DNA of 61,412 nt, taken from the NCBI GenBank assembly GCA_015068825.1, contig SVJU01000011.1, positions 1 to 61,412 of the forward strand, in the 5' to 3' direction. Under the pieces are notes generated by a model, which did no database searches, was not told the origin of the DNA, and saw nothing but the letters and a program-made list of their open reading frames with translations. A program made the position numbers and the translations under genes. Of this stretch, positions 171 through 16,254 are shown piece by piece (within the stretch, counting starts at the first letter, position 1; every line of letters begins with the position of its first letter). The stretch is from Oscillospiraceae bacterium (GTDB lineage Bacteria > Bacillota > Clostridia > UMGS1810).

Positions 171-222
171 AAGTCAAAAAAATAGGCTTTGATAAGTAAA
201 ATTATCAGAGCCTATTTGACTT
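171..222. terminator. Bidirectional stem-loop terminator
   Basis: An inverted repeat pairs AATAGGCTTTGATAA (181-195) with TTATCAGAGCCTATT (202-216). It extends outward through AAGTCAAA / TTTGACTT, giving A- and T-rich flanks on both sides. It lies between the stop of the plus-strand partial gene and the stop of the last gene of the minus-strand tad operon, so it can terminate both transcripts. Confidence 0.8.
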
Positions 223-223
223 A

Positions 224-1459
224 TTATTTAATTCTTTTTCCTGATTTATCTATATAGAACCATTCGCCATCTTTTAATACATATGCTTTTGAGTTTTCAA
301 AGTAGTAAGCATCATCATATTCAAAAGCAATTTTAGGAATACCGTTCATATCAATAAATCCCCATTTGTCACCTTTTTGAGCAGCAATCAGGCCTTCACC
401 CAAAACATGGAACCAGTTATACTGGAATGGAATTATAGCTTTTCCGTTTTTATTAATTATTCCGTATCTTCCGTTTACACCTGCAAGAGCGAGTCCTTCA
501 CCTATATATCCATATCTTATTATGTCGTCATAATCAGGCTGCTGAACAACTTTGCCGGTATTATTAATTACACCGTATTTGCCATTTTTTGATACAATAG
601 CCATTCCTTCAAAGAAGTTGTCTACATATTCATAAGTAGGGGCAATTACTGCTTTGCCGGTTTTATCAATAAAACCCCATTTTCCATTTTTTTCATAAGG
701 AGCAAGCCCTTCGTTAAAAAGCTTTGCATTTTCATATTGAAAATCAATAACAACATTGCCGTCGCGATCAATATATCCCCATAAGTTTTTCTTTTTAACA
801 GGAGCAAGTCCTTCAGAAAAATATCCAACCATACCATCATACTCAAGAGGAATAGCAATTTTTCCGTTATGGTCAATAAATCCACATTTTCCGTTTTTTG
901 ATACGCCGCCTCTTTCGTTGTCAACAACTGAAAATCCCTCGTATAAGTTGTTTTTTGGAAAACCGTAAATAGTATCATATTCCATTGTAATTTCAACACA
1001 GTTTTTTTCTGAATTCCATTTTACATTAGCATTCATAGCTTCAGAAATAGCACGGATTGGCACCATTGTTGTGCCGTTGTTGTATAAAATAGGAGCAACA
1101 TCAATAGCAATTGATCTTTCTTCACCGTTAAATTCTCTGCGGTCTTTTTTGTTTATCCTATATTTATTTATCGACATATTGATAATTGTAATTTCGTTTG
1201 AAATTACAGCTGTCTGTGTCTCTTTAATCCATTTGATTTCATAATTAAGCAATTCTCCAACTGCGCGAAGCGGAACTAAAGTTCTTTCGTGATATACAAA
1301 TGCGCGGTTGTCAGATTCCAAACGTTTTCCGTTGATATATACATCAACAAAATCAACATTTTCGTAATTACCATTAATATTAACCATTTCAGCAGATGCT
1401 ATAATTCCTGTGCAAATAATGGAAAAAATAAACAGGAATAAAACTATAATCTTTTTCAT
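224..1459 (-). CDS. Secreted stalk-domain / WG-repeat protein
   Basis: This 411-residue protein begins with a Sec signal peptide (residues 1-23, cleavage near ASA-EM). Next comes a copper-amine-oxidase-N-like 'stalk' domain (about 36-158), recognised by the paired VPLRAVGE and VPIRAISE motifs. At least six WG-type beta repeats follow (about 170-410) with the pattern KxGKWGFID-x-x-GK. Both modules are common in secreted Firmicutes proteins and are thought to mediate binding rather than catalysis. It is the last gene of the tad operon, 24 bp after the kinase. A second WG-repeat protein sits in the middle of the same operon, which suggests a role at the pilus or cell surface. The exact role is inference. 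Confidence 0.85.
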   Translation of the reverse strand: MKKIIVLFLFIFSIICTGIIASAEMVNINGNYENVDFVDVYINGKRLESDNRAFVYHERTLVPLRAVGELLNYEIKWIKETQTAVISNEITIINMSINKYRINKKDRREFNGEERSIAIDVAPILYNNGTTMVPIRAISEAMNANVKWNSEKNCVEITMEYDTIYGFPKNNLYEGFSVVDNERGGVSKNGKCGFIDHNGKIAIPLEYDGMVGYFSEGLAPVKKKNLWGYIDRDGNVVIDFQYENAKLFNEGLAPYEKNGKWGFIDKTGKAVIAPTYEYVDNFFEGMAIVSKNGKYGVINNTGKVVQQPDYDDIIRYGYIGEGLALAGVNGRYGIINKNGKAIIPFQYNWFHVLGEGLIAAQKGDKWGFIDMNGIPKIAFEYDDAYYFENSKAYVLKDGEWFYIDKSGKRIK

Positions 1460-1483
1460 TTTAAAACTACTCCTTTTTTATAT

Positions 1484-3682
1484 TTAAAAATCTTGCTGTA
1501 TAGGCTGAACATCACCTTCGGGATGTACTGTATGATATTTACTTCCGCAAGTAGGACAGGTTGTTGGCTGAACAGGATGAACGGCATGGTCACCACTTCC
1601 GCAGGTAGGGCAGGTAACAGGGTGAACTGAATGTGAAGTACTGCCACAAGTAGGGCAAGTAACAGGGTGAACTGAATGTGAAGTGCTGCCACAAACATTA
1701 CATTTTTTTATTGTTTTCTTTGGTGGTGTTTTATTTACGGTATTGTTTGCAGATTCATTGTTTGCAATTTCAACTGCTTTGTTGTATGCAGTTTCAAGAT
1801 TTTCCATAGAGGGTTTAATATTGTTGTTATAAGCGTTTAAATATTCTGCAACTAAATCCCTGTCTGCATCTTTAAGATTGTTTATATCATATTCTGCAAG
1901 AAGTTTTGAAAGTGCATCGAATTCAAGTTTTATGTTATCGTGATTGATTAGTGTATCTAAAGCAATATTATTTAAAAATGTTTCTGCATCATTAAACTGA
2001 TTTGTTAACTGTGTGATGTCAATGTCGTTTTCAACAGTAACCATAATAGGTTTAATAAGAGAATTATATACAATTTCAACGGTTGTTGTTCCTTCCAAAT
2101 TAGCTTTAATCAAACCGTTTTCGTCAACTGTTATAATTTGTTCATCTTCTACTTTGTAAGTTAATCCTATGCCTGATCTTTCTTCATCTTGCATATCAGC
2201 TAAAATCTGATATTCTTCACCTACTACAATAGTTACCTCTGATGGGTGATCAATTATGACAGAATCAATATATGAATCTTCTTTATGAATAAAGCGGTTT
2301 ACTGTAAATATGCCAGTAAACAAAGCTAAAATAACAATAGCAGCAGCTATAATAAGTTTTACAACTGGTTTTGCTTTTTTTTCGGTTAAATCTTTTTCTT
2401 TTACAGAATTTAATTTATCTGAGGGTATATCAGTAGCCTCTTTGATATCTGCTTTTGGTAATTTTTGTTCGGAAATTTGTTCAATTACAGGGCTATCTTC
2501 GAAAAGAACTTCAGTTTCTTCGGCAATGTCTTCATTGTAAATATCGTTTGAAGTTTCGTTTAAAACTACCGTTCCTTCATCATCTTGGTTTAAAACTACG
2601 GTTTCTTCATTACCACCAAAATCAGAAATTACTTCCTGTTTTGCAGTTATATTGTGTCTGCTTGGATCAATAAAATCAGAATTTTTATCGTGTGTAGTAA
2701 TATTAGATGCATAAATCTCGCAGTCTTCTTCTTTATTGTGTAAAATTTCTTCAAGGTCTTCACGCATTTCGGATGGAGTCTGGTATCTTTCATCAGGGTT
2801 GTGCTGACAAGCCTTGAGAATGATTTCGGCTAATCTTCCATTTGCATGGTTTGGTGGCGGAAGAGTTTCTCCGCTTATTCTTCTTTTTATTGCAGTTTCT
2901 CTGTCGGTATATGTAATAGGTGCAGGATATGCAGGAAGGAAAGGTGTTCGGTTCTCGTTAAGTAGACGATACATAACTATTCCAAGAGAATATATATCAA
3001 CATTTGCGCGATAAGATTCTTCTTTGTATATTTCGGGTGCCATATAGGCTTGAGTTCCTTTTTTAGAAAGCATACCACTGCTTTGTTCAAGAGTTCGTGC
3101 AATACCAAAATCACCAAGTTTAAAATCTTTATTAACAGATACAAAAATGTTTTCTGGCTTAATATCACGATGAATAATATTGTATTTCTGACATAATTCC
3201 AAAGCCTTACACATATCAATACCAAGCTGAATAACATCTTTTCTTTTTAAATTGATTGTTTTTATGTAATCAATAAGAGGAGTAAGAAGCTCCATTCTTA
3301 TAAGAATATCCCAGCCGATTTTGTCTTCATGCTCAATTACCATATGGTCTTCGTAACTTACAATATTACTGTTTCCTTTAAGCTTTGACATAAGAACAAA
3401 TTCTTTTATGACATCTTCAACAAAGTTTTTATAGTAGTCTCTTACACTACCTTCGTCCATTCCATCAGCCATTACACTTTTAATTTCGCTTTCATTCTGA
3501 GGAATTGTCATAGTTTTAAGAGCTGCTTTGTATGTAGTTCCAAAGTCTTCGCGTTCTATTTCAAAAACTTTACCGTAACTTCCTTCTCCAATTAATCGTT
3601 TTATACGCCAATTGCCAAAAAAAGGTTCATAGTTTTTGTAATATTCTGCGTTCATTATATCATCATCCACCTTAATTTTCAA
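1484..3682 (-). CDS. Transmembrane Ser/Thr protein kinase with CCHH-repeat sensor tail
   Basis: The cytoplasmic Hanks-type kinase domain spans about residues 25-315: glycine loop IGEGSYGKVF, ATP-binding Lys in AALK (K56), catalytic HRDIKPEN (171-178), DFG (191-193) and APE. A juxtamembrane linker carries EETVVLN and DEGTVVLN, candidate phospho-Thr sites at T361 and T371. One membrane helix covers about 441-461. Outside the membrane lie a BIG2-like beta domain (about 472-552), a helical stretch, and four tandem C-x2-C-x4-H-x2-H repeats (661-720). PknB-type kinases usually carry PASTA domains here, and none is present. It starts 3 bp after the stop of a PP2C phosphatase, so kinase and antagonist are co-translated. 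Likely substrates are the FHA protein and other Tad components; that part is inference. Confidence 0.92.
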   Translation of the reverse strand: MKIKVDDDIMNAEYYKNYEPFFGNWRIKRLIGEGSYGKVFEIEREDFGTTYKAALKTMTIPQNESEIKSVMADGMDEGSVRDYYKNFVEDVIKEFVLMSKLKGNSNIVSYEDHMVIEHEDKIGWDILIRMELLTPLIDYIKTINLKRKDVIQLGIDMCKALELCQKYNIIHRDIKPENIFVSVNKDFKLGDFGIARTLEQSSGMLSKKGTQAYMAPEIYKEESYRANVDIYSLGIVMYRLLNENRTPFLPAYPAPITYTDRETAIKRRISGETLPPPNHANGRLAEIILKACQHNPDERYQTPSEMREDLEEILHNKEEDCEIYASNITTHDKNSDFIDPSRHNITAKQEVISDFGGNEETVVLNQDDEGTVVLNETSNDIYNEDIAEETEVLFEDSPVIEQISEQKLPKADIKEATDIPSDKLNSVKEKDLTEKKAKPVVKLIIAAAIVILALFTGIFTVNRFIHKEDSYIDSVIIDHPSEVTIVVGEEYQILADMQDEERSGIGLTYKVEDEQIITVDENGLIKANLEGTTTVEIVYNSLIKPIMVTVENDIDITQLTNQFNDAETFLNNIALDTLINHDNIKLEFDALSKLLAEYDINNLKDADRDLVAEYLNAYNNNIKPSMENLETAYNKAVEIANNESANNTVNKTPPKKTIKKCNVCGSTSHSVHPVTCPTCGSTSHSVHPVTCPTCGSGDHAVHPVQPTTCPTCGSKYHTVHPEGDVQPIQQDF
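1520..1702 (-). repeat. Tandem 45-54 bp repeats encoding four CCHH units
   Basis: The 3' end of the kinase gene holds four direct repeats, each encoding CxxCGSxxHxVHP. Two copies are almost identical at DNA level: the block from AACAGGGTGAACTGAATGTG to the downstream CCACA recurs exactly 45 bp apart (1617-1647 and 1662-1692). The other two have diverged. The near-identity suggests recent copy-number change by slippage or recombination. Confidence 0.85.
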
Positions 3683-3685
3683 AAT

Positions 3686-4477
3686 TTATATAAAAAGTTT
3701 TCTCTTTTTTGCTTTAACAACAATAACTGTAGAGTTGTCTTTTCCGCCTTTTTCATTAGCTTTTCTTAAAAGATTCTGTACAATTTCTTCCGGATAGGTG
3801 AAAAACTTGATTGTATCACAAATTTCTGTGTCGGATAACATATCAGTTATACCGTCGCTGCAAAGAATAAAAGTATCATCTGGCAAAATGTCAAATTCAT
3901 CTACAATGTTAGGTTGCAGAATAATTTCATCATTAAATATTCCAAGATGCTGAGTTAATTTGTGTTTTCCCTTGTGCAAGTTCATATCTTCGGGTTTAAT
4001 TATTCCCATATCAACCAGACTTTGAGCCTGGGTATGATCTTTTGAAAGTTGTGTAAGAGTATTGTTTCTAAACAAATATACTCTGGTATCGCCAATATTA
4101 TATATATAGGCTTTGTCATTGTTTATGTATAATGCGGCAAATGTAGTACCAATGCCGGTACCATTGTTTTTTCTTATTTCATCGCAAATTATATCATTTG
4201 CAAAATTTATATAATCGTTTATATTAAGATTAAAATCCTTGTTATAGTAATTATCAAGGGCCTTTACCGATATGAGCGAAGCTAATTCACCATAGGATTC
4301 ACCACCCATACCATCACAAACAGCATATAAATAGAACTTTCTTTTTTTGTCATCTTTATAAGAATAATAGTTTAAGTGTGTATCGCTTTTATATTTACCG
4401 TTTACATAAAAATTATCTTCATTGTTGTCTCTTATTTTTCCTGCATCACTCATTGCACAGGCTTCGAATTTTATCAT
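3686..4477 (-). CDS. PP2C-family Ser/Thr phosphatase
   Basis: This is a PPM/PP2C metallophosphatase of about 263 residues, with metal-binding and core motifs in order: IRDNNEDN, VCDGMGG, GIGTTFAAL, NIGDTRVYL, LSKDHT, LCSDGITDML and KDNSTVIVV. It has no signal peptide or membrane segment, so it is cytosolic. I place the start at ATG 4477. The longer frame begins with a GTG at 4486 that lies inside the Shine-Dalgarno sequence AAGGTG. It directly precedes the kinase gene and probably reverses its phosphorylations, as PrpC/Stp does for PknB. A second, divergent PP2C lies upstream in the same operon. Confidence 0.93.
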   Translation of the reverse strand: MIKFEACAMSDAGKIRDNNEDNFYVNGKYKSDTHLNYYSYKDDKKRKFYLYAVCDGMGGESYGELASLISVKALDNYYNKDFNLNINDYINFANDIICDEIRKNNGTGIGTTFAALYINNDKAYIYNIGDTRVYLFRNNTLTQLSKDHTQAQSLVDMGIIKPEDMNLHKGKHKLTQHLGIFNDEIILQPNIVDEFDILPDDTFILCSDGITDMLSDTEICDTIKFFTYPEEIVQNLLRKANEKGGKDNSTVIVVKAKKRKLFI

Positions 4478-4507
4478 TACTGACACCTTCTTTAATGAAT
4501 AATATAG

Positions 4508-4732
4508 TTATTGGATGATAAAACTTGATTGTGAAAAAGAAATTTCTTCTTCTGTTGTAAATTTTTTATCAGGTATATCAGTATGCTTTTTTCTTAATTT
4601 ACATAAAATTATTATAAATGTTAATAAAAAGCAAAAAGTTAGAAGTATAGCTAAAATTAAAGCATAATTATTTAACAACAATTGTTGTAACTGTAATATT
4701 ATCTGTTTCACCGCGTTCTTTGTTATATCCAA
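4508..4732 (-). CDS. Small single-pass membrane protein between two phosphatases
   Basis: The frame allows up to 74 residues. It has one strong hydrophobic helix (YALILAILLTFCFLLTFIIIL), then KLRKKH and a polar tail that is probably cytosolic. The only start for the full frame is TTG at 4732, inside the upstream phosphatase gene. Two further TTG codons at 4681 and 4678 overlap that gene's stop and would give a protein of about 57 residues. No clear ribosome binding site is visible, so translation probably depends on coupling. Position and the well-formed helix support a real gene. Function is unknown, and the start is unsure. Confidence 0.55.
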   Translation of the reverse strand: MDITKNAVKQIILQLQQLLLNNYALILAILLTFCFLLTFIIILCKLRKKHTDIPDKKFTTEEEISFSQSSFIIQ

Positions 4733-5438
4733 TTAACAATTCCTCTTTTCTTTTTATGTCTGATTGTGATTTGAATTGTTTGCTTTTAAAATTCAACTCT
4801 AATTCACACTCATCAAGCTTGTGTCTGAAACCATCTGAACACAACATAAAAGTAGTGTTTTTTCTGATTTTTCCAAAATAAAAATCAGGATTAACATTTT
4901 CATTAACTCCGATGCACTGGGTAAGAACATTTTGATTTTTTGCTGTTTTTGCCTGCTCGGGTGTTATAATTTTTTCATCGATTTGTCGCTGTACAAGTGA
5001 ATGGTCCTTAGTAAGCTGAGTCAGTTTGTTTGAAATTTCATATGCCCTTGTATCACCAATGTTTGCTATATAATAATTTTTTTTGGTTACAAGCATTGCG
5101 GTCAATGTAGTTCCTAAATGAATATCATTGTTAAGTTTACCATATTGACGGATTTTGTTATTATCTTCTTTTATAATCTTTTCCCACTGCTTAAAAATTT
5201 TTTCTTTACAAATAGGGGATGTGGTAAGATAAGGAAGAGTATTATTAATCCAGTCATTAAAACTATGCAAAACTGTTGCACTGGCGAGTTCTCCGTTTTC
5301 AAGACCACCCATACCATCACAAATACACGCAAAAACAACCGGTCCGATAGATGTTTTTATTTTCTTTATAAGAAAACTGTCCTGATTTATAGATTTTTTA
5401 ATTCCTATATCGGTAGTGCCTGAAATATAAAAAGTCAT
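4668..5438 (-). CDS. PP2C-family Ser/Thr phosphatase (second copy)
   Basis: This is a PPM/PP2C phosphatase of 256 residues with motifs INQDSF, ICDGMGG, LGTTLTAML, NIGDTRAYE, LTKDHSLVQ, LCSDGF and TDNITVTTIVV. It is only distantly similar to the other PP2C of the operon, so it is not a recent duplicate. It is cytosolic, with no membrane segment. The gene starts 9 bp after the FHA-protein stop and overlaps the small membrane ORF downstream. Having two phosphatases and one kinase suggests they act on different substrates or in different states; that is inference. Confidence 0.92.
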   Translation of the reverse strand: MTFYISGTTDIGIKKSINQDSFLIKKIKTSIGPVVFACICDGMGGLENGELASATVLHSFNDWINNTLPYLTTSPICKEKIFKQWEKIIKEDNNKIRQYGKLNNDIHLGTTLTAMLVTKKNYYIANIGDTRAYEISNKLTQLTKDHSLVQRQIDEKIITPEQAKTAKNQNVLTQCIGVNENVNPDFYFGKIRKNTTFMLCSDGFRHKLDECELELNFKSKQFKSQSDIKRKEELLIGYNKERGETDNITVTTIVVK

Positions 5439-5447
5439 TTTATCACC

Positions 5448-6860
5448 TTAATACATTCTGAATTCAAAATCTTCATCTGCAATTTTAATTCTCTGTCCGT
5501 GTTTTACTTCAACTTCTACACTTCCAGTAAGCATAACATTATCAAGATATGTATGGTTGCGGGAGTTATCATCAACTATGTAATACTGGTTATCTCTTAT
5601 AATAAAATGGCAATGTAGTCTGCCAACATATTTATTATCTTTTAAATCGTAATCAATAAGTTCATTATTTCTTCCAATTTTAAAAGAAGATTTTGTTATA
5701 TAAATCTGCTCGTTTGTTTTAATTCTCAAAAGATATGCACAAGATTGTTGTTTAGCAGTTTCTTCGCCGATAACAACTGTGCCTTCGTCAAAATCAGAAT
5801 TAATACTGTTATCAATACTTCCAAAATCAAATGGTGTATTATTAATAGCAGCAACATTTTCTGCGCTATTTGACGTGGTTTCGGGCTGCAAAGCATTTTC
5901 TTTTTCTTCATAAGAATCGTTGTCAGACTTCGAAGAAGAAACAGGTGCAACAGGCTGTCCGGGAATAGCTATATTTGGAACAACAGGATTAGATGTGTTT
6001 TTCTTTTCTTTGCTTTTTTTCTTTTGTTTTGAAGTGTTTTTATCGTTATCTTTTAAAGCTTTTTTAGCATTTTTTTGTTCATCATAAATTCGTTTGTTTT
6101 CAGAATTGTAATGCTGAAGAAGATAAAAAAGCGACATTGGTTTTTCATCTGAATTACTTTTTTCGGGTGTATTTTTTTTATCCGGTATTTTAACTTCAGG
6201 AACAACGGGTTTTGGTGTATTGGTAATAGGAGGAGCTATTACTTTCTGAACAGAAGGGGTGGGGGAAGATTCAGGTGCTTTTGCCACCTTTTTTAATTCC
6301 GGACCCTGAATATTTATTGTTTGTATTAACTTGTAAAAATCATCAATCGAAAAAATATCAGCAGTATTTAAATAATTAATCATAGTTGTAACATAAGAAT
6401 TGTTTTCATCCTGTGAGAATTTTGCATTGAATAATATGTTTTTAAAGAAAGAAGATAAGTCTTCCTTATCAATTTTGGCATTTTCAACAGGAAGGCAGAT
6501 AAGTTCTGTTTTGTTGTCGGAAATATCGGTGAATATGTAATCTTTATTAATCAGGAAACAAGATTCATCAATCATATATTCTTCAGCAGATTTGATTGCT
6601 TTTATTATTTCTGAAAAAATAGATAAAACTCTCTTTTTTGTCATGTTTGATTCTGATATTTGTGTAAAGCTCACCTTTGAGGTAATATTATATTTTAAAA
6701 TTCGTGTATCATCAATCTGAGTGTAGGTTGTTGGTACAATTCCGTCGATTGTATTGTTGGTAAGCATACCTAAAATAGATGAATCCACCTTTTCAGACGG
6801 GTCTATTTTGCATACAAGATATGTTTCTGAACCTTGATTTTCGTATGTGAAAGAGCTCAT
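5448..6860 (-). CDS. FHA-domain phosphothreonine-binding protein
   Basis: Of 470 residues, the first 190 form a globular domain resembling DUF6382, which often precedes FHA domains in Clostridia (family name from memory). A long Pro/Lys-rich linker (about 195-350) follows, then an acidic DEGTVVIGEE motif (358-367). The C-terminal FHA domain (about 375-470) shows FKIGRNNE, VGRLHCHF and the phosphopeptide loop NSRNHTYLD. The DEGTVV core also occurs in the juxtamembrane region of the operon's kinase. This suggests either a kinase-FHA docking pair or intramolecular binding of phospho-T361. The protein lies between TadE-like and phosphatase genes and is probably the phospho-dependent adaptor of the pilus machine. 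An AGGAGG site precedes the ATG. Confidence 0.88.
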   Translation of the reverse strand: MSSFTYENQGSETYLVCKIDPSEKVDSSILGMLTNNTIDGIVPTTYTQIDDTRILKYNITSKVSFTQISESNMTKKRVLSIFSEIIKAIKSAEEYMIDESCFLINKDYIFTDISDNKTELICLPVENAKIDKEDLSSFFKNILFNAKFSQDENNSYVTTMINYLNTADIFSIDDFYKLIQTINIQGPELKKVAKAPESSPTPSVQKVIAPPITNTPKPVVPEVKIPDKKNTPEKSNSDEKPMSLFYLLQHYNSENKRIYDEQKNAKKALKDNDKNTSKQKKKSKEKKNTSNPVVPNIAIPGQPVAPVSSSKSDNDSYEEKENALQPETTSNSAENVAAINNTPFDFGSIDNSINSDFDEGTVVIGEETAKQQSCAYLLRIKTNEQIYITKSSFKIGRNNELIDYDLKDNKYVGRLHCHFIIRDNQYYIVDDNSRNHTYLDNVMLTGSVEVEVKHGQRIKIADEDFEFRMY

Positions 6861-6872
6861 ATTAAAAACCTC

Positions 6873-7451
6873 CTATTTTGTTTTCCATAATTTTGAACAT
6901 GCAGTTTGCTCAACCTTAATATTTTCCATATTTGCCGGTTGAAAATCGTATTCCATTTCATATTTTAAATTTACATATAGTGTGTCATTCTCAACATACG
7001 AACCTGAAAAATCGAGTCCGTCAAGTCCGTTGACAATGTTTAAATTTTTTAAAAATGATGATGCCTCTTCTTCGTTGCCGCCGTTAAGATATCCTACAAA
7101 TCTGGATTTTACAGCTTCGCTTACATCATCTTGTTCATACCATTTTGCTTCAAAATTGAAATTTGTTTTATCTTCACGAGCATCTGTGTCAACATTACTT
7201 AGATCCCTTATTAAGTCACCTAAAAAATCACCGACATTCGTTGCATCGGCAGAGCTTTCGAGTAGCAACTTGTCTATTGAATAAACCTCAGTTGCAAGAC
7301 TTTGGGTTGCCTGCAGAACAACATGAGATGTAATATTTTGTGCCATAAAAATCAAAAACAGGCTGGATAAAAGAAGCATAAGTATTAAAAACGAAACAAC
7401 TACAACGCAGGCTTCTAATGTTATAACACCACTATTTGAATGTTTTTTCAT
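6873..7451 (-). CDS. TadE-like pseudopilin
   Basis: This 192-residue protein has a type IV prepilin-like leader. The short basic segment MKKHSNSG is followed by VITLE and a long hydrophobic helix, so processing after G8 would place Glu at position +5, the hallmark of prepilin peptidase substrates. The remainder is a small soluble domain rich in Asp and Val. TadE-like minor pseudopilins help initiate or stabilise Tad pili. It follows the split TadG-like gene by one base and precedes the FHA gene, consistent with translational coupling. Confidence 0.8.
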   Translation of the reverse strand: MKKHSNSGVITLEACVVVVSFLILMLLLSSLFLIFMAQNITSHVVLQATQSLATEVYSIDKLLLESSADATNVGDFLGDLIRDLSNVDTDAREDKTNFNFEAKWYEQDDVSEAVKSRFVGYLNGGNEEEASSFLKNLNIVNGLDGLDFSGSYVENDTLYVNLKYEMEYDFQPANMENIKVEQTACSKLWKTK

Positions 7452-7452
7452 A

Positions 7453-7857
7453 TTAATACCCCCTGTAGTTTTTTCTTTTTATTGTAAACAAAGATGAATC
7501 CGATAAAGAAGGTAAAATTTGTTTTATAGTTACATCAGCCTCTGATTCAACAAATGTGTATGCCTTGCGAAGATCGAAAACAAAATCTTTGCCGTTTTGT
7601 TGTTGATAATAGTGTGTAGACTCCATTTGTATTAAATTTTGCAATCGCATTAATTGCAAATCACTTGGTATCAATAAGAATAACAACATCAAGCAATGTT
7701 CTCTGTATTTAAGAGAAACTAAGTCTTTTAATTTTATTGATGAAGGAGTTTCTTTTTCACTTGGCATTTCTTTTTCACTTGGTGTTTCTTTTTCACTCGG
7801 TGTTTCTTTTTCTAAAAAACTGCCTTCTGTTTCTTCGTTTGACAGTCTGTCAGCCAA
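7453..7857 (-). CDS. Probable detached C-terminal part of the TadG/DUF5702-like protein
   Basis: The frame encodes 134 residues: a low-complexity stretch of EKETPS repeats, then a domain with YREHCLMLLFLLI and MRLQNLIQMES, ending in a beta-rich tail. The second half resembles what I recall as the C-terminus of the large DUF5702-type proteins in clostridial tad loci. There is no convincing start. The annotated one is TTG, and the same frame stays open upstream to about 7910, overlapping the end of the 740-residue gene. A frameshift near 7900 that split one protein of about 890 residues is the simplest reading. A genuine two-gene arrangement is possible. Confidence 0.55.
   Translation of the reverse strand: MADRLSNEETEGSFLEKETPSEKETPSEKEMPSEKETPSSIKLKDLVSLKYREHCLMLLFLLIPSDLQLMRLQNLIQMESTHYYQQQNGKDFVFDLRKAYTFVESEADVTIKQILPSLSDSSLFTIKRKNYRGY
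7744..7815 (-). repeat. Four 18-bp direct repeats encoding EKETPS
   Basis: The unit TTTCTTTTTCACTTGGTG recurs four times in the plus orientation with few changes. In the minus-strand frame it encodes the tandem hexapeptide EKETPS, a flexible acidic linker. Such units change copy number readily by slippage. Confidence 0.8.
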
Positions 7858-7898
7858 ACGGGTAATTCCTCTTGATGCGTTAACAGAAACAGGGTTTC

Positions 7899-10121
7899 TT
7901 ACTGACCAGTTTCTACTCGGTAAGAGGATACAATTGTATTAGATATGGATGAATTATCCCCAAAAGGCACACTTATCAATTTGTCTATTACTTTTGGAAT
8001 TCCACTTGGTGAAGCATATATGCCAGTTAATTTTATTAGCGGAACAGAATTGTTATTTACTAATAAAATGGTATCTATTAATGGTTCTACAAATGCAATT
8101 ATTGCCATTACAGCAGGATAACCAATTGTTGCAGCGGCAGCCATAGCCTGTGCATCAGGATCTGTAAATACCGGAATTAAATCTATTAATAATCTTAATA
8201 TATATATTCCCACAAAGGTGGCTAATTGGTTACCAATTTCACTGTTTGTACCGCCAACAATGTATTCTATTTCAGCACCGCTGAATGTTATATCAGCACC
8301 ATGTCCTGATGCCAGAGTAGTTATATTATCTATAATTGCCGCAAAATCGTCAATTGGACTTATATTATTTGAAATTATGTTTGATTTTGGCAAGTAGTAT
8401 GCATCAGCAGATGGAGTGGATGAACCTATACTGAAATTTGTCATTGTAGTGTAGGAAGTGCCATTTGTTTTATTATCAGTTCTGCAAGAAAGATTGTATG
8501 TAGAATATGTAGAATACCATAGTTGGTTTCTCATTACATTTTCGAGTCTTTCTACCATTTTAAAAGCAAATGTTTTTAAATTCTCAAAAATTGCTTTTGA
8601 TGATTCAATAGCACCTTCAAAAGCATCATAAGCTGCAGAAATGTCAAGATTTTCTATTGAAAGAGATTCTTTTATAGTTGTTACGCTGTTAAGTAAATTA
8701 CTTATTGAAGATACAATTGCCATCATATCATCACTCAACACATGTCCTGGCAATCCACCAATATTTTCTTTATAAAAGTTACTATCTATTATGTTTGAAA
8801 GTGACGGGTCAAAAAATATTTGAGTTTTAAATACTTGATTTATTAAATCATTTAATTGCCCAAGATAAACTAAAATGCTGTCGTCAAATAAATCAAGAGC
8901 TTGTTGTGCAAGAAATTTTGTAATTTCTTTTGTTGTTAAATGACCTGTTATAACATAATAATATTCATCTTTTGATATGGTTGTTGATGATGATATGCTG
9001 CTTATGTCAAAAGAATTTACTTTTCCCTTCAGTGTTTCAAGGCCTTTCATTATTTCGCCAAATACATTTCCTTCATTTTCGCTTATGACAGAATTCCAGT
9101 TGTTCAGCGTGTTTGAAGCGCTTTTCTGAGCTAAAGATGTTATATCGTTAACAACTTTAGTTGTTTTTTCAAGTTGGTCGTTACTACTGCTATTACTATT
9201 GCTGCTGTTGTTATTTTTATTTATTTCATTACCAAGCTTTACTCCTGAACTTATCGAACCTGTAATGCCGGGAACAATGCTTGTAGCACTACTTGCTAAT
9301 GATACTGTTGCAGAAAAACAAGCTTTTGTTTGTTCTACACAATCAGCAAAAACAGATATAAGATCATCTATCATAGCTACATACGATTCTTTGGCAGTTT
9401 GAACATTGTCTTTTAAACTTTCAATATCAGTATCTGCACCTTCTTCTGAGGTGGTATTTAATGCAGATACAAGATCAGTTACTGTTCTTTCAAATTCATC
9501 ATAACATTCATTGTAAAATGCGCCATATTGTTCGATTTTCGCTGTTGCTTTTGCAAGTTCTTGCGAAGATTGCATTAATGTTTTTGTGGCAGAAATTGTA
9601 GTATTAACAGAGGTGAATGTAGATAAAATATTGGTTATAAATTTGTCCAGATTTTTTATAAGCCCAAGAAGTTCTTCAATTGCAACTGTAAAGACTGTGG
9701 TCGCAAGGCGAGTAGGGGCACTGTATTTAGCAAATTCGAGTATTTGTGCATTTAATGTATCTCTGTTTGAAAGTGGATACAATCCCATTGAATTCGCAGG
9801 AGAATTTAATTTTACTGAATTTCCCAATACACCAATGTTAGTAGTAAAATATTCATTAAAAGAATCGTTTATATTTATGTCTTGCGAAAGTGCCAAAAGA
9901 CCCCAGCGTTCTCTTAAAAATGGGTCATAATTTGCAAGAGTAGAGGTAGCAGAAACACCCATAGCTTCATCTAATATCGAAACTGCGCTGTTATATCTGC
10001 CCATTTCAACCAAAATAGTTGCAACAGATAAAAAAGGTGTCATTAATATTGCTAAAAACAGGGCGATTACACCTTTGGTGCCATTTATACATTTTAGTGG
10101 TCTGAATTTTTTTCTTTTCAT
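7899..10121 (-). CDS. Large TadG/DUF5702-like Tad-locus protein
   Basis: This 740-residue protein has a basic N-terminus, then GTKGVIALFLAILMTPFLS, a prepilin-like membrane helix with a possible G17/V18 cleavage site but no Glu at +5. A long alpha-helical, Ser/Thr/Asn-rich ectodomain follows. Near the C-terminus are hydrophobic segments (about 640-700) with GIYASPSG. Proteins of this size and layout sit next to TadE-like genes in Firmicutes tad loci and are thought to be surface or pseudopilus components. The frame stops shortly before the next ORF, whose content looks like the missing C-terminal domain. ATG and an AGGAGAC-type site lie 26 bp after the upstream TadE-like gene. Confidence 0.75.
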   Translation of the reverse strand: MKRKKFRPLKCINGTKGVIALFLAILMTPFLSVATILVEMGRYNSAVSILDEAMGVSATSTLANYDPFLRERWGLLALSQDININDSFNEYFTTNIGVLGNSVKLNSPANSMGLYPLSNRDTLNAQILEFAKYSAPTRLATTVFTVAIEELLGLIKNLDKFITNILSTFTSVNTTISATKTLMQSSQELAKATAKIEQYGAFYNECYDEFERTVTDLVSALNTTSEEGADTDIESLKDNVQTAKESYVAMIDDLISVFADCVEQTKACFSATVSLASSATSIVPGITGSISSGVKLGNEINKNNNSSNSNSSSNDQLEKTTKVVNDITSLAQKSASNTLNNWNSVISENEGNVFGEIMKGLETLKGKVNSFDISSISSSTTISKDEYYYVITGHLTTKEITKFLAQQALDLFDDSILVYLGQLNDLINQVFKTQIFFDPSLSNIIDSNFYKENIGGLPGHVLSDDMMAIVSSISNLLNSVTTIKESLSIENLDISAAYDAFEGAIESSKAIFENLKTFAFKMVERLENVMRNQLWYSTYSTYNLSCRTDNKTNGTSYTTMTNFSIGSSTPSADAYYLPKSNIISNNISPIDDFAAIIDNITTLASGHGADITFSGAEIEYIVGGTNSEIGNQLATFVGIYILRLLIDLIPVFTDPDAQAMAAAATIGYPAVMAIIAFVEPLIDTILLVNNNSVPLIKLTGIYASPSGIPKVIDKLISVPFGDNSSISNTIVSSYRVETGQ

Positions 10122-10146
10122 AAGAGTTGTCTCCTGGTAATTTTAA

Positions 10147-10812
10147 TTATCCATTAACCATTTTTAAAATAGAGTTTATAAATTTTACTATATCGCTGTT
10201 TAATGATTTGAGTGAAGTTGTAACATCAACATAATCAATCGTATTGATATATTCTAACATATCAAAACACTCGGCATAAGATGTTACTTCATACTCAATT
10301 ACACCCGGAAAACCAAAAAATGCCATTGATTCACCAAATGGAACTTTATATTTCCCGGAAATTGTAAGTGAAAGATGGTATCTTCCTAATGAGTCATAAC
10401 GAATGTCAGGAATGATGTTGGTTGTACCAACTTCTTTTGTGAAGGTGGTTCTTCTAAGCCTTTCGGAAGCGTATTCGATTAGTTTTTCTTTTATTGTTTG
10501 TTGATGTACTCCCTTACTGATTTCGCCTTTTATATCAAATAAATATCCATTTCTGTATAAATCAACATTTGCAAGGTCATCTTCGGTAATTTCTCCTGTT
10601 GAAACATCAGCATTGGCATAACGATATGTTTGTGCAACTCTTGTTACTGCCTCGTTTGCTATTGTATGTATATTCCATCTTTGAAACAAAACAGAAAAGA
10701 GTGCCAGAATAAAGAAAAGCAAAAAAATCGTTACTGTATAAACAATCAAAGCTTCAAGCATTATTTCGCCATTGTTTGATTTTATTAACTTGTTTTTTAA
10801 CTTTTGTATCAT
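10147..10812 (-). CDS. TadE-like pseudopilin (first of two)
   Basis: This 221-residue protein has a classic class III leader: MIQKLKNKLIKSNNG, then EIMLEALIVYT. Cleavage after G15 puts Glu (E20) at +5, and a helix of about 25 hydrophobic residues follows. The rest is a mixed alpha/beta ectodomain. Retention of G-1 and E+5 strongly suggests processing by the A24 peptidase encoded nearby at 12203-12898. It lies between a WG-repeat gene and the large TadG-like gene. Its partner at 6873-7451 has the same leader but an unrelated ectodomain, as expected for a TadE/TadF pair. Confidence 0.8.
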   Translation of the reverse strand: MIQKLKNKLIKSNNGEIMLEALIVYTVTIFLLFFILALFSVLFQRWNIHTIANEAVTRVAQTYRYANADVSTGEITEDDLANVDLYRNGYLFDIKGEISKGVHQQTIKEKLIEYASERLRRTTFTKEVGTTNIIPDIRYDSLGRYHLSLTISGKYKVPFGESMAFFGFPGVIEYEVTSYAECFDMLEYINTIDYVDVTTSLKSLNSDIVKFINSILKMVNG

Positions 10813-10857
10813 GACAATGTCACTCCAGATAAATTTAAAAATTGCATATAGGGGATA

Positions 10858-12177
10858 TTAATCAAATTTAAATTGAAGAAGTTGATAACATCCGTCGGCT
10901 TCTGATATCATACATGTTTCAGATGATGTAAAATAGAAAGCATCAAAGTATTTGTAATCAATAACAAGTTCGTTATTTGAATTTATAAAGCCCCATAATC
11001 CACCATCATTTTTTACAGCAGCATATCCGTTTGCAAAGCTTTTTGCACCGTCATACGCAGGCTCAATTTCAACTTTTCCTTCTTTGTTGGCAAATCCCCA
11101 TTTTCCGCCTTTTTCAAAGGCAATAAGGTTTGAAGATATGCAAATGTCCACATTGCTTGCCGAAAAATCACCAATTTGTTTAAAATCAGCATCGTAAATA
11201 TGATAATTTCCGCCTTTTTTAGCCAAAATAATACCACTTTGAATATAAGAGCCGTAAAGGTCAAGCTTTATATCCTGAAAATCAAGTTTTGTTTCGTTGC
11301 CTTTTTCGTCAATCAAATACCACTTGTTATCCTTTTTTGCAACGGCTTTTTTGTTGTAAAAGCTTCCTGCAACATCGTATTCACCTTTAAGAAGCTTTCC
11401 TTTAGAATTCACATATTTCCATTTATCTTTAATTTTAACAGGAATAAGGTCAGATGATTCGCTGTAGCAGCCTGCTTCTTCAACATCAAGTTTAAATCTT
11501 GCACGGGCAATTTCGTTTTTGTCAAGAATTCTTGTGTCAATGTTATTTATATAAAGTCCTTTTCCGTCATCATTTAATAAACCTATAAGTTTATACGGAC
11601 CTATAAGCTCTTTACCGTCATCACCCAAAACAAGCCATTCATTTCCATCATAAACGGTAATATAACCATTTAAAGCTGTATAGAATTTTGAATATAATTT
11701 ATAATCAATTTTAGTCATATAAAGAAGCTCTTTGTATAACTTGTCAAATTCTTTTCCAGAAACATTCATATTTTTTGCCTGAACAGCTGTTTCGTAAGCT
11801 TTTGTATAATTGTTTGCTTCTATATAAAGCTTGATTTGTGTATTCCAGAACTCATCCTGATTTGGAAAATCAGTTGCTGCTAATGCCATATCAGAAATAT
11901 ACGCGTTTCTGATAAATGGTATATGCTCTTCTTTATATAATGTGTCGTATGTAGATTTAATGTCACGGTAAATACCAACGCTTTTCTTTACAGATAAAGC
12001 ATCCTTATAAAATTCAATTGCCTGTTCATATAAACCGTCTTTAATACTTGCTTTTGCTTCTTTAATATATGAGTTGTACTCAATGGTAGTTTTAAAAGTA
12101 CCCGAAAGGAAAGAGTACCAGGATATTAAAAGAAGTACTATAAGAATTACTGGTAAAAATACATTTAATTTTTTCAT
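10858..12177 (-). CDS. Membrane-anchored TPR-like / WG-repeat protein
   Basis: An uncleaved N-terminal helix (MKKLNVFLPVILIVLLLISW) anchors about 439 residues outside the membrane. Residues about 30-150 are helical and TPR-like (AIEFYKDALSV, AYETAVQAK). Residues about 165-440 form degenerate WG-type beta repeats, clearest in KGGKWGFANKEGKVE and GGLWGFINSNNELV. I place the start at ATG 12177. A longer frame begins at GTG 12189, which is part of the ribosome binding site. It sits between the prepilin peptidase and pseudopilin genes. A scaffolding role in pilus assembly is plausible but is inference. Confidence 0.8.
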   Translation of the reverse strand: MKKLNVFLPVILIVLLLISWYSFLSGTFKTTIEYNSYIKEAKASIKDGLYEQAIEFYKDALSVKKSVGIYRDIKSTYDTLYKEEHIPFIRNAYISDMALAATDFPNQDEFWNTQIKLYIEANNYTKAYETAVQAKNMNVSGKEFDKLYKELLYMTKIDYKLYSKFYTALNGYITVYDGNEWLVLGDDGKELIGPYKLIGLLNDDGKGLYINNIDTRILDKNEIARARFKLDVEEAGCYSESSDLIPVKIKDKWKYVNSKGKLLKGEYDVAGSFYNKKAVAKKDNKWYLIDEKGNETKLDFQDIKLDLYGSYIQSGIILAKKGGNYHIYDADFKQIGDFSASNVDICISSNLIAFEKGGKWGFANKEGKVEIEPAYDGAKSFANGYAAVKNDGGLWGFINSNNELVIDYKYFDAFYFTSSETCMISEADGCYQLLQFKFD

Positions 12178-12202
12178 AATATATACCACCGTTTAAATTT
12201 TA

Positions 12203-12898
12203 TTAATATAATGTAAAAAGACACATAACCAAGTATCCAATATAAATAAAAGGACCAAAAGGCATAACATCTTTTGAAGTTTTCTTTTTTAGAGCTATTA
12301 AAATAAGTGATATTAAAATGCAGGCAATAAGAGCGAGCAAAAGTGTTGAAAAAGCAACATATACACCGCACATTAATCCTAATGATGCCAAAAGTTTAAT
12401 ATCACCGGCACCAATACCGCCTTTTGAAAGCTTGTTTGCTATTATAAGAAGTAATCCTGAAAGGAAAAAACCTATAAGTGAGCTTAAAAAAGATGCCACT
12501 ACGGTATTTGTAAATATAAATTCATATATAAGAATTAAAATTCTTGATATTATTAATACCAATGGAAAAAAGTTTGGTATTATTTTAAGTTTGTAATCTA
12601 TTACTGCTGCGCCAAGAAGTACAATATAGCTTACACCAAGCATAATTAATGCAGTTATTGAAACTGCATTTTTTGAGATTATAAATCCCGAAAGTGCTGA
12701 AAGCACAATGATTACTATCAACGAAATTAAAGAATAAACATTTTTTTCGTATTTTTTTAAGCAGGGGATATCATTTTCTTCATTATTTTCAATTGAAGTG
12801 TCAATAAGTTCAATTTTTTTGTTTGTGTAATAAAACATAAAAAACGACATAAAAGCAGAAAGCAAACCAAATAATAAAGTAATAATAACTGAATACAA
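12203..12898 (-). CDS. A24-family prepilin peptidase (TadV/CpaA type)
   Basis: This polytopic membrane protein of 231 residues has about seven hydrophobic segments. The two catalytic aspartates of the A24 family are visible: D101 in AVIDYKLKIIPN and D166 in GIGAGDIKLL (the GxGD motif). There is no N-terminal methylase domain or cysteine cluster, as usual for tad-type enzymes. It should remove leader peptides from the Flp pilin and the two TadE-like proteins encoded on either side. It follows the pilin gene across a strong hairpin. Confidence 0.93.
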   Translation of the reverse strand: MYSVIITLLFGLLSAFMSFFMFYYTNKKIELIDTSIENNEENDIPCLKKYEKNVYSLISLIVIIVLSALSGFIISKNAVSITALIMLGVSYIVLLGAAVIDYKLKIIPNFFPLVLIISRILILIYEFIFTNTVVASFLSSLIGFFLSGLLLIIANKLSKGGIGAGDIKLLASLGLMCGVYVAFSTLLLALIACILISLILIALKKKTSKDVMPFGPFIYIGYLVMCLFTLY

Positions 12899-12924
12899 AT
12901 TCTATCCCTCCAAAAAGCTTTTTC

Positions 12925-12949
12925 AGGGGGTATAAAGGTATACCCCCCC
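12925..12949 (-). promoter_or_regulatory. Hairpin after the pilin gene (partial terminator or RNA stabiliser)
   Basis: A perfect GGGGGTATA / TATACCCCC stem with a 4-nt loop lies 27 bp past the Flp pilin stop and upstream of the peptidase gene. No uninterrupted U-tract follows on the minus-strand RNA, so it is not a full terminator. It is well placed to attenuate read-through or protect the pilin mRNA 3' end, so that pilin is made in excess over the rest of the operon. Confidence 0.7.
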
Positions 12950-12975
12950 AGTTTTGTTAAATAAACTAAATGAGC

Positions 12976-13200
12976 TTATCTTCCGCCTTTAGCAGTATCA
13001 AAGAAAGAGCCGATGTTTTCGTCAACCCAACCAATAACCTGATCTTTGAATGCAATAAATACAGCAGCAAGCGCAATACCTATACCAAGAAGAATTAAAA
13101 CAGAAATAAAGTTTGTATCTCCTTCTTCGTTTCTTAAAAAGCTTTTTGCTTTTTCAAGTTTGATTTTTGCCATTAGGGCAAGATTGTTAAGTGTTTTCAT
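12976..13200 (-). CDS. Flp1-like type IVb pilin
   Basis: This 74-residue protein has a basic leader ending NEEG (G27), then DTNFISVLILLGIGIALAAVFIAF, and a short amphipathic tail that ends in Lys/Gly/Arg. Size, leader and position after TadC match the Flp1_like pilin family of Firmicutes tad loci. The residue at +5 after the predicted cleavage is Ile, not the usual Glu. Glu is the contact normally needed for efficient assembly of type IV pilins. It is the probable major subunit. An AAGGAT site lies about 8 bp before the ATG. Confidence 0.85.
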   Translation of the reverse strand: MKTLNNLALMAKIKLEKAKSFLRNEEGDTNFISVLILLGIGIALAAVFIAFKDQVIGWVDENIGSFFDTAKGGR

Positions 13201-13240
13201 TGTTTATCCTTATCCTTTCATTAATAATTTTTATATGTAA

Positions 13241-13256
13241 TTTATCGTCCGATAAA
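13241..13256. promoter_or_regulatory. 16-bp dyad upstream of the pilin gene
   Basis: TTTATCG-TC-CGATAAA is a perfect 7-bp inverted repeat in the 71-bp gap between the tadC-like and pilin genes. It could be an operator or a short RNA hairpin. I see no convincing -35/-10 pair beside it, so an independent pilin promoter is not demonstrated. Confidence 0.4.
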
Positions 13257-13271
13257 AAACAACAATTTTAT

Positions 13272-14126
13272 TTATAAAACCATACCCTGCATAGCTGCAG
13301 ATATTATTATCATAATTATTCCTGCAAACATAATACCAAGTGGAATAACAAGTTTTCCAGCAGCAATTTCACCTTTTTGAAGGGTTCTTTGTCTTTTTCC
13401 TTCCCAAAGCTCATTTGCCTGATTGGCAAGAAAATCTGAAAGTTCGCTATTACCTTTTTCAAGACTTTGAATAATAGCACTTGAAAATTTCTTTATTTCG
13501 GAGGAGTTTGAAATTACACCGAATTTGTGAATAGCTACAATGTCAGATTCACCATTATCCATAAACACACACGATTTTTTCATAAGGTCATAAAGCTCGC
13601 CTTCTTTTCCATGCGCAACAAGTCGCCACGCATCATGAAGTACCATACCTGAATTGATAAGAAGAGAGAGTTTTGCAATCATATCGGGAAATTCCAATAC
13701 ACAGTCTTCGCTTCTTTTTTCCAAAAGCTCTTTCATACTTGATAATGTAAGGTTCCATATTGCAGCAATTGCTAAAATTCCAATCAATAAAAACAATGCG
13801 CCTGCAAAGCTTGCTAAAACAGAAGATATGCAAAGTGCAATAAGTGAAAAGGTTAAAAACTGCGCCCACGCAAGACCTACATAATATTCATAATAAACTT
13901 CTCCGTGTATGATTGTTGCTTGTTTCTTTAAATCTTGTAAAAGCTTGCCTTTTAATCTGAATAATTTTTTTTGGCTTAAATAGTATCCAACAATATATAA
14001 AGATTTTAAAGGATGCTCTCCTTCATCAAGATTTTGTATATATACTTCATTTGGTTTTCCTTTTGCCAGACCAATTATAAACATCACCGTGCTTATGGTG
14101 GCAATTATAAGTGATATAAGTGTCAT
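13272..14126 (-). CDS. tadC: TadC-like inner-membrane platform protein
   Basis: This 284-residue protein has an N-terminal membrane segment, two central hydrophobic segments (about 95-135), a cytosolic helical T2SSF-type region (VLEFPDMIAKLSLLINSGM and following), and a C-terminal membrane pair ending in MQGMVL. This topology is typical of the T2SSF family platform proteins TadB and TadC. It follows tadB by 19 bp. In Tad systems TadB and TadC form the membrane platform on which the TadA ATPase acts. Confidence 0.88.
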   Translation of the reverse strand: MTLISLIIATISTVMFIIGLAKGKPNEVYIQNLDEGEHPLKSLYIVGYYLSQKKLFRLKGKLLQDLKKQATIIHGEVYYEYYVGLAWAQFLTFSLIALCISSVLASFAGALFLLIGILAIAAIWNLTLSSMKELLEKRSEDCVLEFPDMIAKLSLLINSGMVLHDAWRLVAHGKEGELYDLMKKSCVFMDNGESDIVAIHKFGVISNSSEIKKFSSAIIQSLEKGNSELSDFLANQANELWEGKRQRTLQKGEIAAGKLVIPLGIMFAGIIMIIISAAMQGMVL

Positions 14127-14145
14127 AATAATATATCCTCCGTTA

Positions 14146-14988
14146 TTATGCTTTTATGGCAACAATTTTTTCGCCATATTTGTATGCTGCTATAAATACA
14201 ACAATTGCAATTGTGTTAACAAGAACACCGGTAGGAGTTGCAAAGTTTTCTGCAAATCCTTTGTTTGTAAGCTTTAGCATTAAAACTATTGCAATAGGCA
14301 TAAGGCTCATTACATTATGCTGCATTTTATTTGAAGTAAGCTTTGTCTGTATTTCATTTGAAATAGCAATTTTCTGACCTATAAGGTCGTGTGTACGCAT
14401 AATAACCGATTTCATATTTCCGCCTTTTTGATGACACATTGCAAAAACATCTGCAAAATTTAAAACATCATCATTTGAACTTCTTGCGGCAAAATCTCTT
14501 AGCATTACATCGATGTTGATACCCTGATTTGAACCACTTATAATCTGCTGCATTTCCTGTATTATAAAATCATTTTCTTCATACTGTAATTTAAGGTCAT
14601 TAAATGCAGACAAAAATGCACTTTGAACATTGCTTCCTGCAGAAAAAGAAGCAGATAAGGATTCAAGCATATCACGAAATTGCAATTTTATGACATTCTT
14701 TCTTTTTTCAAGCATAGAATTTTTGTACATTGGAACAAGAAATTTTATTCCTGCAAAACCAACTACTGTAAAAAAGAATATATTTGAAATATGTGTAGCC
14801 ATTGTTGCATAACCGTCAACTTTAAATAATCCGCTATAAAATATAAGTCCTGTTATACCACCAAGTATAAATGCAATAAGATTTGCAAGGATTTTTTCTG
14901 CTTTTGAAAACACATAAACATTATAGTTAAGCATCTGATTATTTAAAGGAGTGGTAAGATATTGTTCTTCTATTATCTTTTTTTTCAT
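14146..14988 (-). CDS. tadB: TadB-like inner-membrane platform protein
   Basis: This is a T2SSF-family protein of about 280 residues. An N-terminal cytosolic segment precedes two membrane helices, followed by the T2SSF core (FRDMLESLSASFSAGSN, the charged FAD-VFAMCHQKGG region, and VIMRTHDLIGQKI) and C-terminal helices. The start is ATG 14988 (MKKKIIEE). The longer frame starts at a GTG at 14997 that belongs to the GAGGTG ribosome binding site. This site overlaps the end of the ATPase gene, so the two are coupled. It pairs with TadC as the assembly platform. Confidence 0.88.
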   Translation of the reverse strand: MKKKIIEEQYLTTPLNNQMLNYNVYVFSKAEKILANLIAFILGGITGLIFYSGLFKVDGYATMATHISNIFFFTVVGFAGIKFLVPMYKNSMLEKRKNVIKLQFRDMLESLSASFSAGSNVQSAFLSAFNDLKLQYEENDFIIQEMQQIISGSNQGINIDVMLRDFAARSSNDDVLNFADVFAMCHQKGGNMKSVIMRTHDLIGQKIAISNEIQTKLTSNKMQHNVMSLMPIAIVLMLKLTNKGFAENFATPTGVLVNTIAIVVFIAAYKYGEKIVAIKA

Positions 14989-14998
14989 AAAAAACACC

Positions 14999-16237
14999 TC
15001 AGATTTCAGTTTTATATCCGGAAAGTTGAAGTTTAAATGTATTAATCATTGGATTTTCTGTTCTTTTCAAGCTTCCCGAAACTTTTGTAAGTGTACTGTT
15101 TTCATCTTCTTCAAATACATAAAGAGGGTTAAGTACAACTTTGCCATTTTCGTATTTAACAACCTCTGTTATAGCCATAGTTTTTCTTGAGTGGTCACGA
15201 AGTCTTGAAAGATGAATGATTATATCAACAGCCGATGCAATTTGCTGGCGTATTGCTTCTAAAGGAAGTCCGGCTGCACCTTGAAGAACCATTGTTTCAA
15301 GACGGCTTAACATATCTTCTGTAGAGTTGGCATGTCCTGTTGAAAGCGAACCATCATGACCTGTATTCATTGCCTGAAGCATATCAAGAGCTTCTCCACC
15401 TCTGACCTCTCCGACAATTATGCGTTCTGGTCTCATTCTTAGTGATGATTTAATAAGATCTTTAATAGTTATCTGACCTGCACCTGCTGTGTTGGCATTT
15501 CTTGTTTCAAGTGAAACAAGGTTATCAACACCTTTAATCTGAAGTTCAGCAGAGTCTTCAATAGTAATTACACGCTCATCTTTTGGAATAAAATTTGATA
15601 GAGCGTTTAAAAATGTAGTTTTACCGGAACCGGTACCGCCACTGATAAATATGTTATATTTTGCTTTAACCAAAAGTTCCAGCTTTTCTGCTATTTCGCT
15701 TGTTATAGAACCATAGGAAATAAGCTTTTCCATAGTCATAGGTGTTTTGGAAAATTTTCTTATAGTCATTGTGGGACCGCACAAAGCAATAGGGGGTAGT
15801 ACAACATTTACACGCGATCCGTCAGAAAGCCTGGTATCTACAATCGGGTTTGCCTGGTTTACTTCTCGTCCGGCACTTTCAACTACCCTTTGAATAACAT
15901 CAAGAAGGTCACGTTCGCTTCCGAAATGTCTTTCAAGCTTTTGAAGACGACCGTTTTTTTCAATAAAAATATTTTCGTGGCCGTTTATCATAACTTCTGT
16001 TATTGTATCGTCGTTTATAATTGTATCAAGCAAACCAAGTCCACGAAATGAGTTAAAAACTTGTTGAACAATATCAACCATCTGGTTAACAGAGCAGTAT
16101 TCGTTTTCAAGTTTACTGTTTACAATTTCTTTTATTTTATCTTCAAGCTCTTCGTCGCTCATAGTGCTGAATTGCAAGTATGAACGGATATATGTAACGG
16201 TTTCGGTTATTAAGGATTGTTCTCTTTCTAAATCCAT
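14999..16237 (-). CDS. tadA: TadA/CpaF-type secretion ATPase
   Basis: This 412-residue hexameric ATPase powers Tad pilus assembly. Residues 1-150 form the N-terminal CpaF domain. Walker A is GGTGSGKT (200-207). The Asp box (TIEDSAELQ), Walker B (RMRPERIIVGEVRGGEALD) and His box (TGHDGSLSTGHANS) follow in the expected order. Length and motif order are normal for the family. It lies 17 bp after tadZ and is translationally coupled to tadB. Confidence 0.95.
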   Translation of the reverse strand: MDLEREQSLITETVTYIRSYLQFSTMSDEELEDKIKEIVNSKLENEYCSVNQMVDIVQQVFNSFRGLGLLDTIINDDTITEVMINGHENIFIEKNGRLQKLERHFGSERDLLDVIQRVVESAGREVNQANPIVDTRLSDGSRVNVVLPPIALCGPTMTIRKFSKTPMTMEKLISYGSITSEIAEKLELLVKAKYNIFISGGTGSGKTTFLNALSNFIPKDERVITIEDSAELQIKGVDNLVSLETRNANTAGAGQITIKDLIKSSLRMRPERIIVGEVRGGEALDMLQAMNTGHDGSLSTGHANSTEDMLSRLETMVLQGAAGLPLEAIRQQIASAVDIIIHLSRLRDHSRKTMAITEVVKYENGKVVLNPLYVFEEDENSTLTKVSGSLKRTENPMINTFKLQLSGYKTEI

Positions 16238-16254
16238 AATTACACCTCCTGTTT

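Follow-up and report, generated by a model that had tools for sequence, protein, structure and literature searches.

The window analysed here, a stretch of 61,412 nucleotides from an Oscillospiraceae bacterium (contig SVJU01000011.1), begins with a run of minus-strand genes (224-17322) in which Tad pilus genes are followed by an FHA/DUF6382 gene, two PP2C phosphatase genes, the gene of a Ser/Thr kinase and the gene of a Cu_amine_oxidN1-WG protein (Table 1). The Tad part has the gene content of a Tad/Flp cluster, with an ATPase, two TadB/C-type proteins, TadZ and a prepilin peptidase, and with a Flp pilin recognized by inspection; short N-terminally hydrophobic proteins in the same part look, likewise by inspection, like pseudopilins. 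The composition of the whole run suggests a phospho-control of the Tad pilus. An 18-nt tandem repeat (7748-7812, 3.6 copies), located in the ORF 7453-7857, encodes SEKETP-type repeats.

Table 1. Features of the kinase locus and of the adjoining pilus genes in the window.
Feature	Position	Strand	Basis or remark
Stem-loop of 16 pairs, possible terminator behind the last gene	180-217	.	
Secreted protein with two Cu_amine_oxidN1 matches and WG repeats	224-1459	-	First gene after the kinase
Ser/Thr kinase, transmembrane	1484-3682	-	732 aa as mechanical ORF, TTG start
C-terminal end of the kinase, EGDVQPIQQDF	1487-1519	-	11 residues after unit 4
CCHH unit 4, CPTCGSKYHTVHP	1520-1558	-	
CCHH unit 3, CPTCGSGDHAVHP	1574-1612	-	
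CCHH unit 2, CPTCGSTSHSVHP	1619-1657	-	
CCHH unit 1, CNVCGSTSHSVHP	1664-1702	-	
Big_2 Ig-like domain, predicted outside	2063-2245	-	Pfam, 24.5 bits, cut-off 22.8
Single transmembrane segment, residues 443-461	2300-2356	-	Mean hydropathy 2.81
Protein kinase domain	2774-3607	-	Pfam, Pkinase 133.9 bits, cut-off 31.7
PP2C-type phosphatase	3686-4486	-	Pfam, NCBIfam
Second PP2C-type phosphatase	4668-5438	-	Pfam, NCBIfam
DUF6382 and FHA domain protein, candidate phosphothreonine reader	5448-6860	-	Pfam
Tad/Flp pilus genes	6873-17322	-	TadZ-like, T2SSE ATPase, two T2SSF, A24 prepilin peptidase, DUF5702 protein
Second WG-repeat protein, with N-terminal hydrophobic segment	10858-12189	-	Inside the Tad run
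Flp-like pilin in the Tad run	12976-13200	-	By inspection

The N-termini of related kinases (M-x-x-x-Y-Y-K) indicate that the ATG at position 3655 is a likelier start of the kinase than the TTG. The motifs HRDxKxxN, DFG and APE can be read in the intact kinase domain, and by these features the protein is classified as a eukaryotic-like transmembrane Ser/Thr kinase with predicted activity. A Lys-rich stretch precedes the transmembrane segment, and the outer region consists, in this order, of the Big_2 domain, a helical stalk, the four CCHH units and 11 residues. Since the protein has one hydrophobic segment only and the Big_2 domain lies beyond it, the tail is predicted to be located outside the cell, and the extracytoplasmic position proposed in the initial annotation is thereby supported as a prediction. 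Its description as a kinase without PASTA domains holds as well: Pfam detected no PASTA domain in the window kinase, and with 143.8 bits against a cut-off of 450 the protein is no PASTA kinase according to the NCBIfam model.

Each unit comprises 13 residues with two Cys and two His, which follow the pattern C-x2-C-G-S-x2-H-x-V-H-P in the window, and all four units are in frame within the last 80 residues of the kinase. The underlying DNA repeat has a period of 45 nt (2.8 copies), with one further copy at 54 nt. It had been stated that the outer part ends in four such units; the four units are real, but 11 residues still follow. We found no second copy of the module elsewhere in the same genome, no curated family, known metal-binding families included, that matches the units over its cut-off, and no mention of the spacing C-x2-C-x4-H-x2-H (CX2CX4HX2H) in the literature searched. 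A search of the PDB sequences with the tail returned weak zinc-ribbon matches alone (best E 0.013), and the AlphaFold2 models calculated from single sequences, one for the tail and one for the outer region as a whole, had mean pLDDT values of 49 and 39, which are too low for use. As far as literature and databases were searched, the kinase class is known and the outer module is undescribed. The assumption that CxxC pairs are rare in exported proteins is correct for this genome: in a sample of 338 kb (about 277 kb plus the window), with export called by a crude signal-peptide rule, we counted 0.29 CxxC per 1000 residues in 59 predicted exported proteins versus 1.37 in 156 cytosolic proteins, and none of these 59 exported proteins contained four.

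For the distribution of the module, DNA patterns were scanned in 391 genomes of the class, 398 of the phylum (slight overlap) and 28 of one order, and a separate kinase search covered the same 391 class genomes. The module was detected in three further proteins only, with one unit in G024 (L084), four units in G046 (L085) and two units in G242 (L154), which gives 11 units in four kinases. The search in other kinase tails that had been suggested beforehand was successful: each of these three proteins is a transmembrane kinase from the subfamily of the window kinase, with the units placed at its outer C-terminus. The initial DNA pattern allowed only Val or Ile and overlooked the G242 kinase, which was found by the kinase search before the pattern was relaxed, and the phylum-wide count may therefore miss variants. 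The remaining DNA-pattern matches are isolated singles in short or unrelated frames and look random, two extra matches being judged from DNA only. Searches of phages and plasmids revealed nothing convincing for the module, and none of the nine single matches of a pattern scan of IMG/VR is located in a comparable tail. As the module occurs only once in its own genome and matches outside of kinases are single and random-looking, its recurrence is above chance. No subfamily kinase was found at E 1e-60 in G001, the sole other genome of the genus searched (93% complete), so the gene is not constant across the genus.

The residues C1, C4, S6, H9, H12 and P13 are invariant in all 11 units. Position 5 varies among Gly, His and Asn; at position 11, nine units have Val or Ile and those of G242 have Ser or Asn, which results in the consensus C-x2-C-[GHN]-S-x2-H-x2-H-P for all units. 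The conservation of Cys and His, named in advance as the test on which the proposal could fail, is complete in the three other tailed kinases. A comparison of nine units revealed a pS of 0.99 (saturated) and a pN of 0.09 at conserved positions, where pN stems from Val/Ile and Ser codon switching, and values of 0.71 and 0.54 at variable positions; Ser codons of both the TCN and the AGY type are used. The high pS in combination with the low pN and the use of both Ser codon types points to selection on the units and not to recent copying, and judged by these codon data it is the chemistry of the units that is selected for. The sequence SKYHTVHP is common to unit 4 of the window and the only unit of G024. 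The outer regions of the window and G242 kinases share 33% identity (BLAST E 7e-27) and the same layout of Ig-like domain, helical stalk and units, and in this comparison the first two units retain their ligands. The spacing is fixed within the units, and the gap between units ranges from 0 to 5 residues.

In a tree calculated from 68 kinase-domain sequences, the window kinase clusters with a kinase of G380, whose tail is lost at the contig end, and the other three tailed kinases form a second well-supported group apart from the window kinase. Because this tree needs at least two changes, the kinases either swapped the outer part among each other or lost it on several occasions. Other outer parts among the relatives are PASTA, TPR-like, BspA-like repeats and solute-binding-like parts, which were assigned by inspection with the exception of the PASTA-like repeats; many of these relatives stand in tandem kinase arrays. 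The loci L025, L042, L043 and L044 contain two to four closely related kinases in tandem with a different outer part in each, and these arrays give the impression that one kinase body was equipped with exchangeable sensors.

A secreted Cu_amine_oxidN1 protein is encoded by the next gene in four of four tailed kinases versus five of 63 others (Fisher p 1.6e-4), and a Cu_amine_oxidN1 neighbor with WG repeats in three of the four versus none of the 63 (p 8e-5), whereby both tests ignore the shared descent of the kinases. Since five kinases without units also precede Cu_amine_oxidN1 genes and WG repeats are missing in the G242 partner protein, docking between both proteins need not involve the units. 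A C-terminal [FY][DEN] is present in seven of nine kinases beside a Cu_amine_oxidN1 gene versus two of 58 others, a pattern that was picked post hoc; this ending of an aromatic residue followed by an acidic or amide one concerns the C-termini in L031, L032, L084, L085, L086, L143 and L154. It is a possible docking peptide and no more than a lead; the window kinase, which ends with DF, does not match it.

Taken by their residues and spacing, the units probably hold metal. Each of them looks like a self-contained C2H2 site, because the internal spacing is fixed, the gaps are variable and a tail with one unit exists, and Zn is most likely, as Zn2+ is the usual ion for a set of two Cys and two His. 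The initial annotation left open whether the units bind metal or form disulfides. Metal appears to be the likelier option and disulfides are disfavored, because the His residues are as invariant as the Cys residues and no DsbA or VKOR families were found in the three tail-carrying genomes tested, while controls detected both families elsewhere. C4 ribbons between adjacent units were ruled out by the variable gaps, the invariant His and the kinase with one unit, and haem c binding was ruled out as there is no CxxCH.

The CCHC zinc knuckle has the pattern C-x2-C-G-x2-G-H-x4-C and resembles the units in the start C-x2-C-G-x3-H, in tandem copies and in one ion per short unit, which is putative for the kinase tail. 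However, the fourth ligand of the unit is a His three residues after the first His and not a Cys five residues after it, and the units are predicted to act outside the cell and not on nucleic acid. Due to this different ligand the units do not belong to zf-CCHC (PF00098): the tail of G046 scored 13.8 bits against a cut-off of 20.8, and the family is not among the best 25 profile matches for the window tail. Zinc ribbons (DZR, DZR_2, RUBY_RBDX) and the cytosolic zinc-ribbon kinases of the subfamily are similar with regard to CPxCG knuckles and their presence in membrane kinases, but have two CxxC pairs (C4) in fixed spacing and precede the transmembrane segment in L042 and L044, whereas in the CCHH units the His are invariant, one unit suffices and all are located beyond this segment. 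With every match to DZR and relatives below the cut-off and a single-unit tail in existence, the units are not members of the zinc ribbons either. Two CxxC-rich membrane proteins of a Gram-positive, Llmg_0524 and Llmg_0526 of Lactococcus, have been shown to bind zinc and have a cell-wall phenotype (PMC4628341), but these proteins carry CX2CX10CX2C at the N-terminus and no kinase. The kinases in L007 and L008, which belong to the same family of organisms, contain on their cytosolic side, immediately N-terminal to the transmembrane segment, a zinc-ribbon-like stretch (WRCPxC...CxxC).

A metal-dependent docking or sensing is the likely role of the units, and owing to the linkage with a co-encoded secreted protein we consider protein docking no less likely than metal sensing. 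The explanation that we favor, even though we rate it somewhat below an even chance, is a metal-folded outer docking head that acts together with this secreted protein. The tail would form, on the outside, a row of small metal sites that are each complete in themselves; the two Cys and two His of each 13-residue unit would bind one ion, most likely Zn2+. The metal-loaded units could give the flexible C-terminus a fixed shape for docking to a surface protein, most likely the secreted Cu_amine_oxidN1(-WG) protein of the next gene. Docking, or its loss under metal scarcity, might bring kinase molecules together or apart and alter phosphorylation inside the cell, and in the window the neighboring PP2C phosphatases and the FHA protein might relay the signal to the machinery of the Tad pilus. 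The more far-reaching proposal, a new extracytoplasmic 13-residue metal repeat that serves as sensing or docking head of a kinase and, together with a co-encoded secreted Cu_amine_oxidN1-WG protein, controls a pilus or secretion machine from outside, is held with less confidence and is only tentatively put forward.

Among the alternatives, we favor a direct metal sensor next to the docking head, followed by a plain structural tail and then by redox sensing. In a direct sensor the units would load and unload free outside Zn2+ or another transition ion, the shape change alone would set the kinase activity and the neighboring secreted protein would be incidental or otherwise employed. The four, two or one identical C2H2 sites at the outer end of the kinases, the strict conservation of the ligands and the paralogue arrays in related genomes, which show that the subfamily swaps its outer sensor parts, are in line with such a sensor. 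However, one to four like sites offer no obvious graded sensing, the conserved Ser and Pro beyond the ligands together with the conserved neighbor gene suggest a protein surface, and no metal transporter or metal regulator is among the neighboring genes read, so that we regard this explanation as rather unlikely. Metal-folded repeats that carry no signal and merely make the end stiffer or anchor it to the cell envelope would explain why the unit number varies (1, 2, 4, 4) and why low-complexity linkers (Pro, Thr, Asn or Lys-rich) precede the tail, as in envelope-spanning stalks. The ligands are, however, more conserved than the stalk, and kinases of relatives bear recognizable sensor domains at that place, which makes a purely structural tail doubtful.

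The case for a thiol redox sensor, with CxxC pairs that make or break disulfides depending on the outside redox state, is based on four CxxC on an exported tail in a genome whose exported proteins are otherwise poor in CxxC, and on a cyanobacterial Ser/Thr kinase under thiol-based redox control, as far as it is cited in PMC6213207. As disulfide chemistry needs neither the two His nor the Pro, which are as fixed as the Cys, the missing DsbA and VKOR families in three genomes speak against it, and the other relatives are presumably strict or likely anaerobes, we consider redox sensing clearly improbable. That the tail is not outside at all and represents a cytosolic zinc ribbon as in L007, L042 and L044, with CxxC before the transmembrane segment, is hardly to be expected: such ribbons exist in the same kinase subfamily and are the best weak profile matches, but the units follow the sole transmembrane segment in all four tailed kinases, and in three of them they also follow Ig-like domains.

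Like the PASTA kinases PrkC, PknB and StkP, the window protein combines a cytosolic kinase, one transmembrane helix and small outer repeats with a PP2C gene alongside, but the outer part is built of Big_2, helical stalk and C2H2 units instead of PASTA. To our knowledge, the sensed signal is undefined for most membrane Ser/Thr kinases without PASTA domains. The units may provide a kinase of an anaerobic bacterium with a new type of antenna outside the cell, and as the module is short, defined, easily made and combined with a specific neighbor gene, ligand and partner are directly testable. If metal is held outside, a zinc-type module of this sort would be unusual among the exported proteins of a Clostridia-type bacterium, in which exported Cys is scarce, and it would connect the state of a metal or a surface protein to a Tad pilus. 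The grouping of genes for a membrane Ser/Thr kinase, a PP2C phosphatase and an FHA protein with those of a secretion or pilus machine resembles the threonine phosphorylation pathway PpkA/PppA/Fha of type VI secretion (PMC5995506), but here the machine is a Tad pilus in the window or WXG100/FtsK genes in G242 and G380, the genome is of the Gram-positive type and a pathway of this kind is putative. The stretches of G024 and G046 that were read showed no Tad genes, and the link to the pilus is therefore not general. The kinases of G242 and G380 adjoin PP2C and WXG100 genes, in G242 together with FtsK/SpoIIIE. Subfamily kinases are located beside type VII secretion genes in L154 (2-10954) and L155 (1-6711), with WXG100 in both and an FtsK/SpoIIIE-type ATPase in L154.
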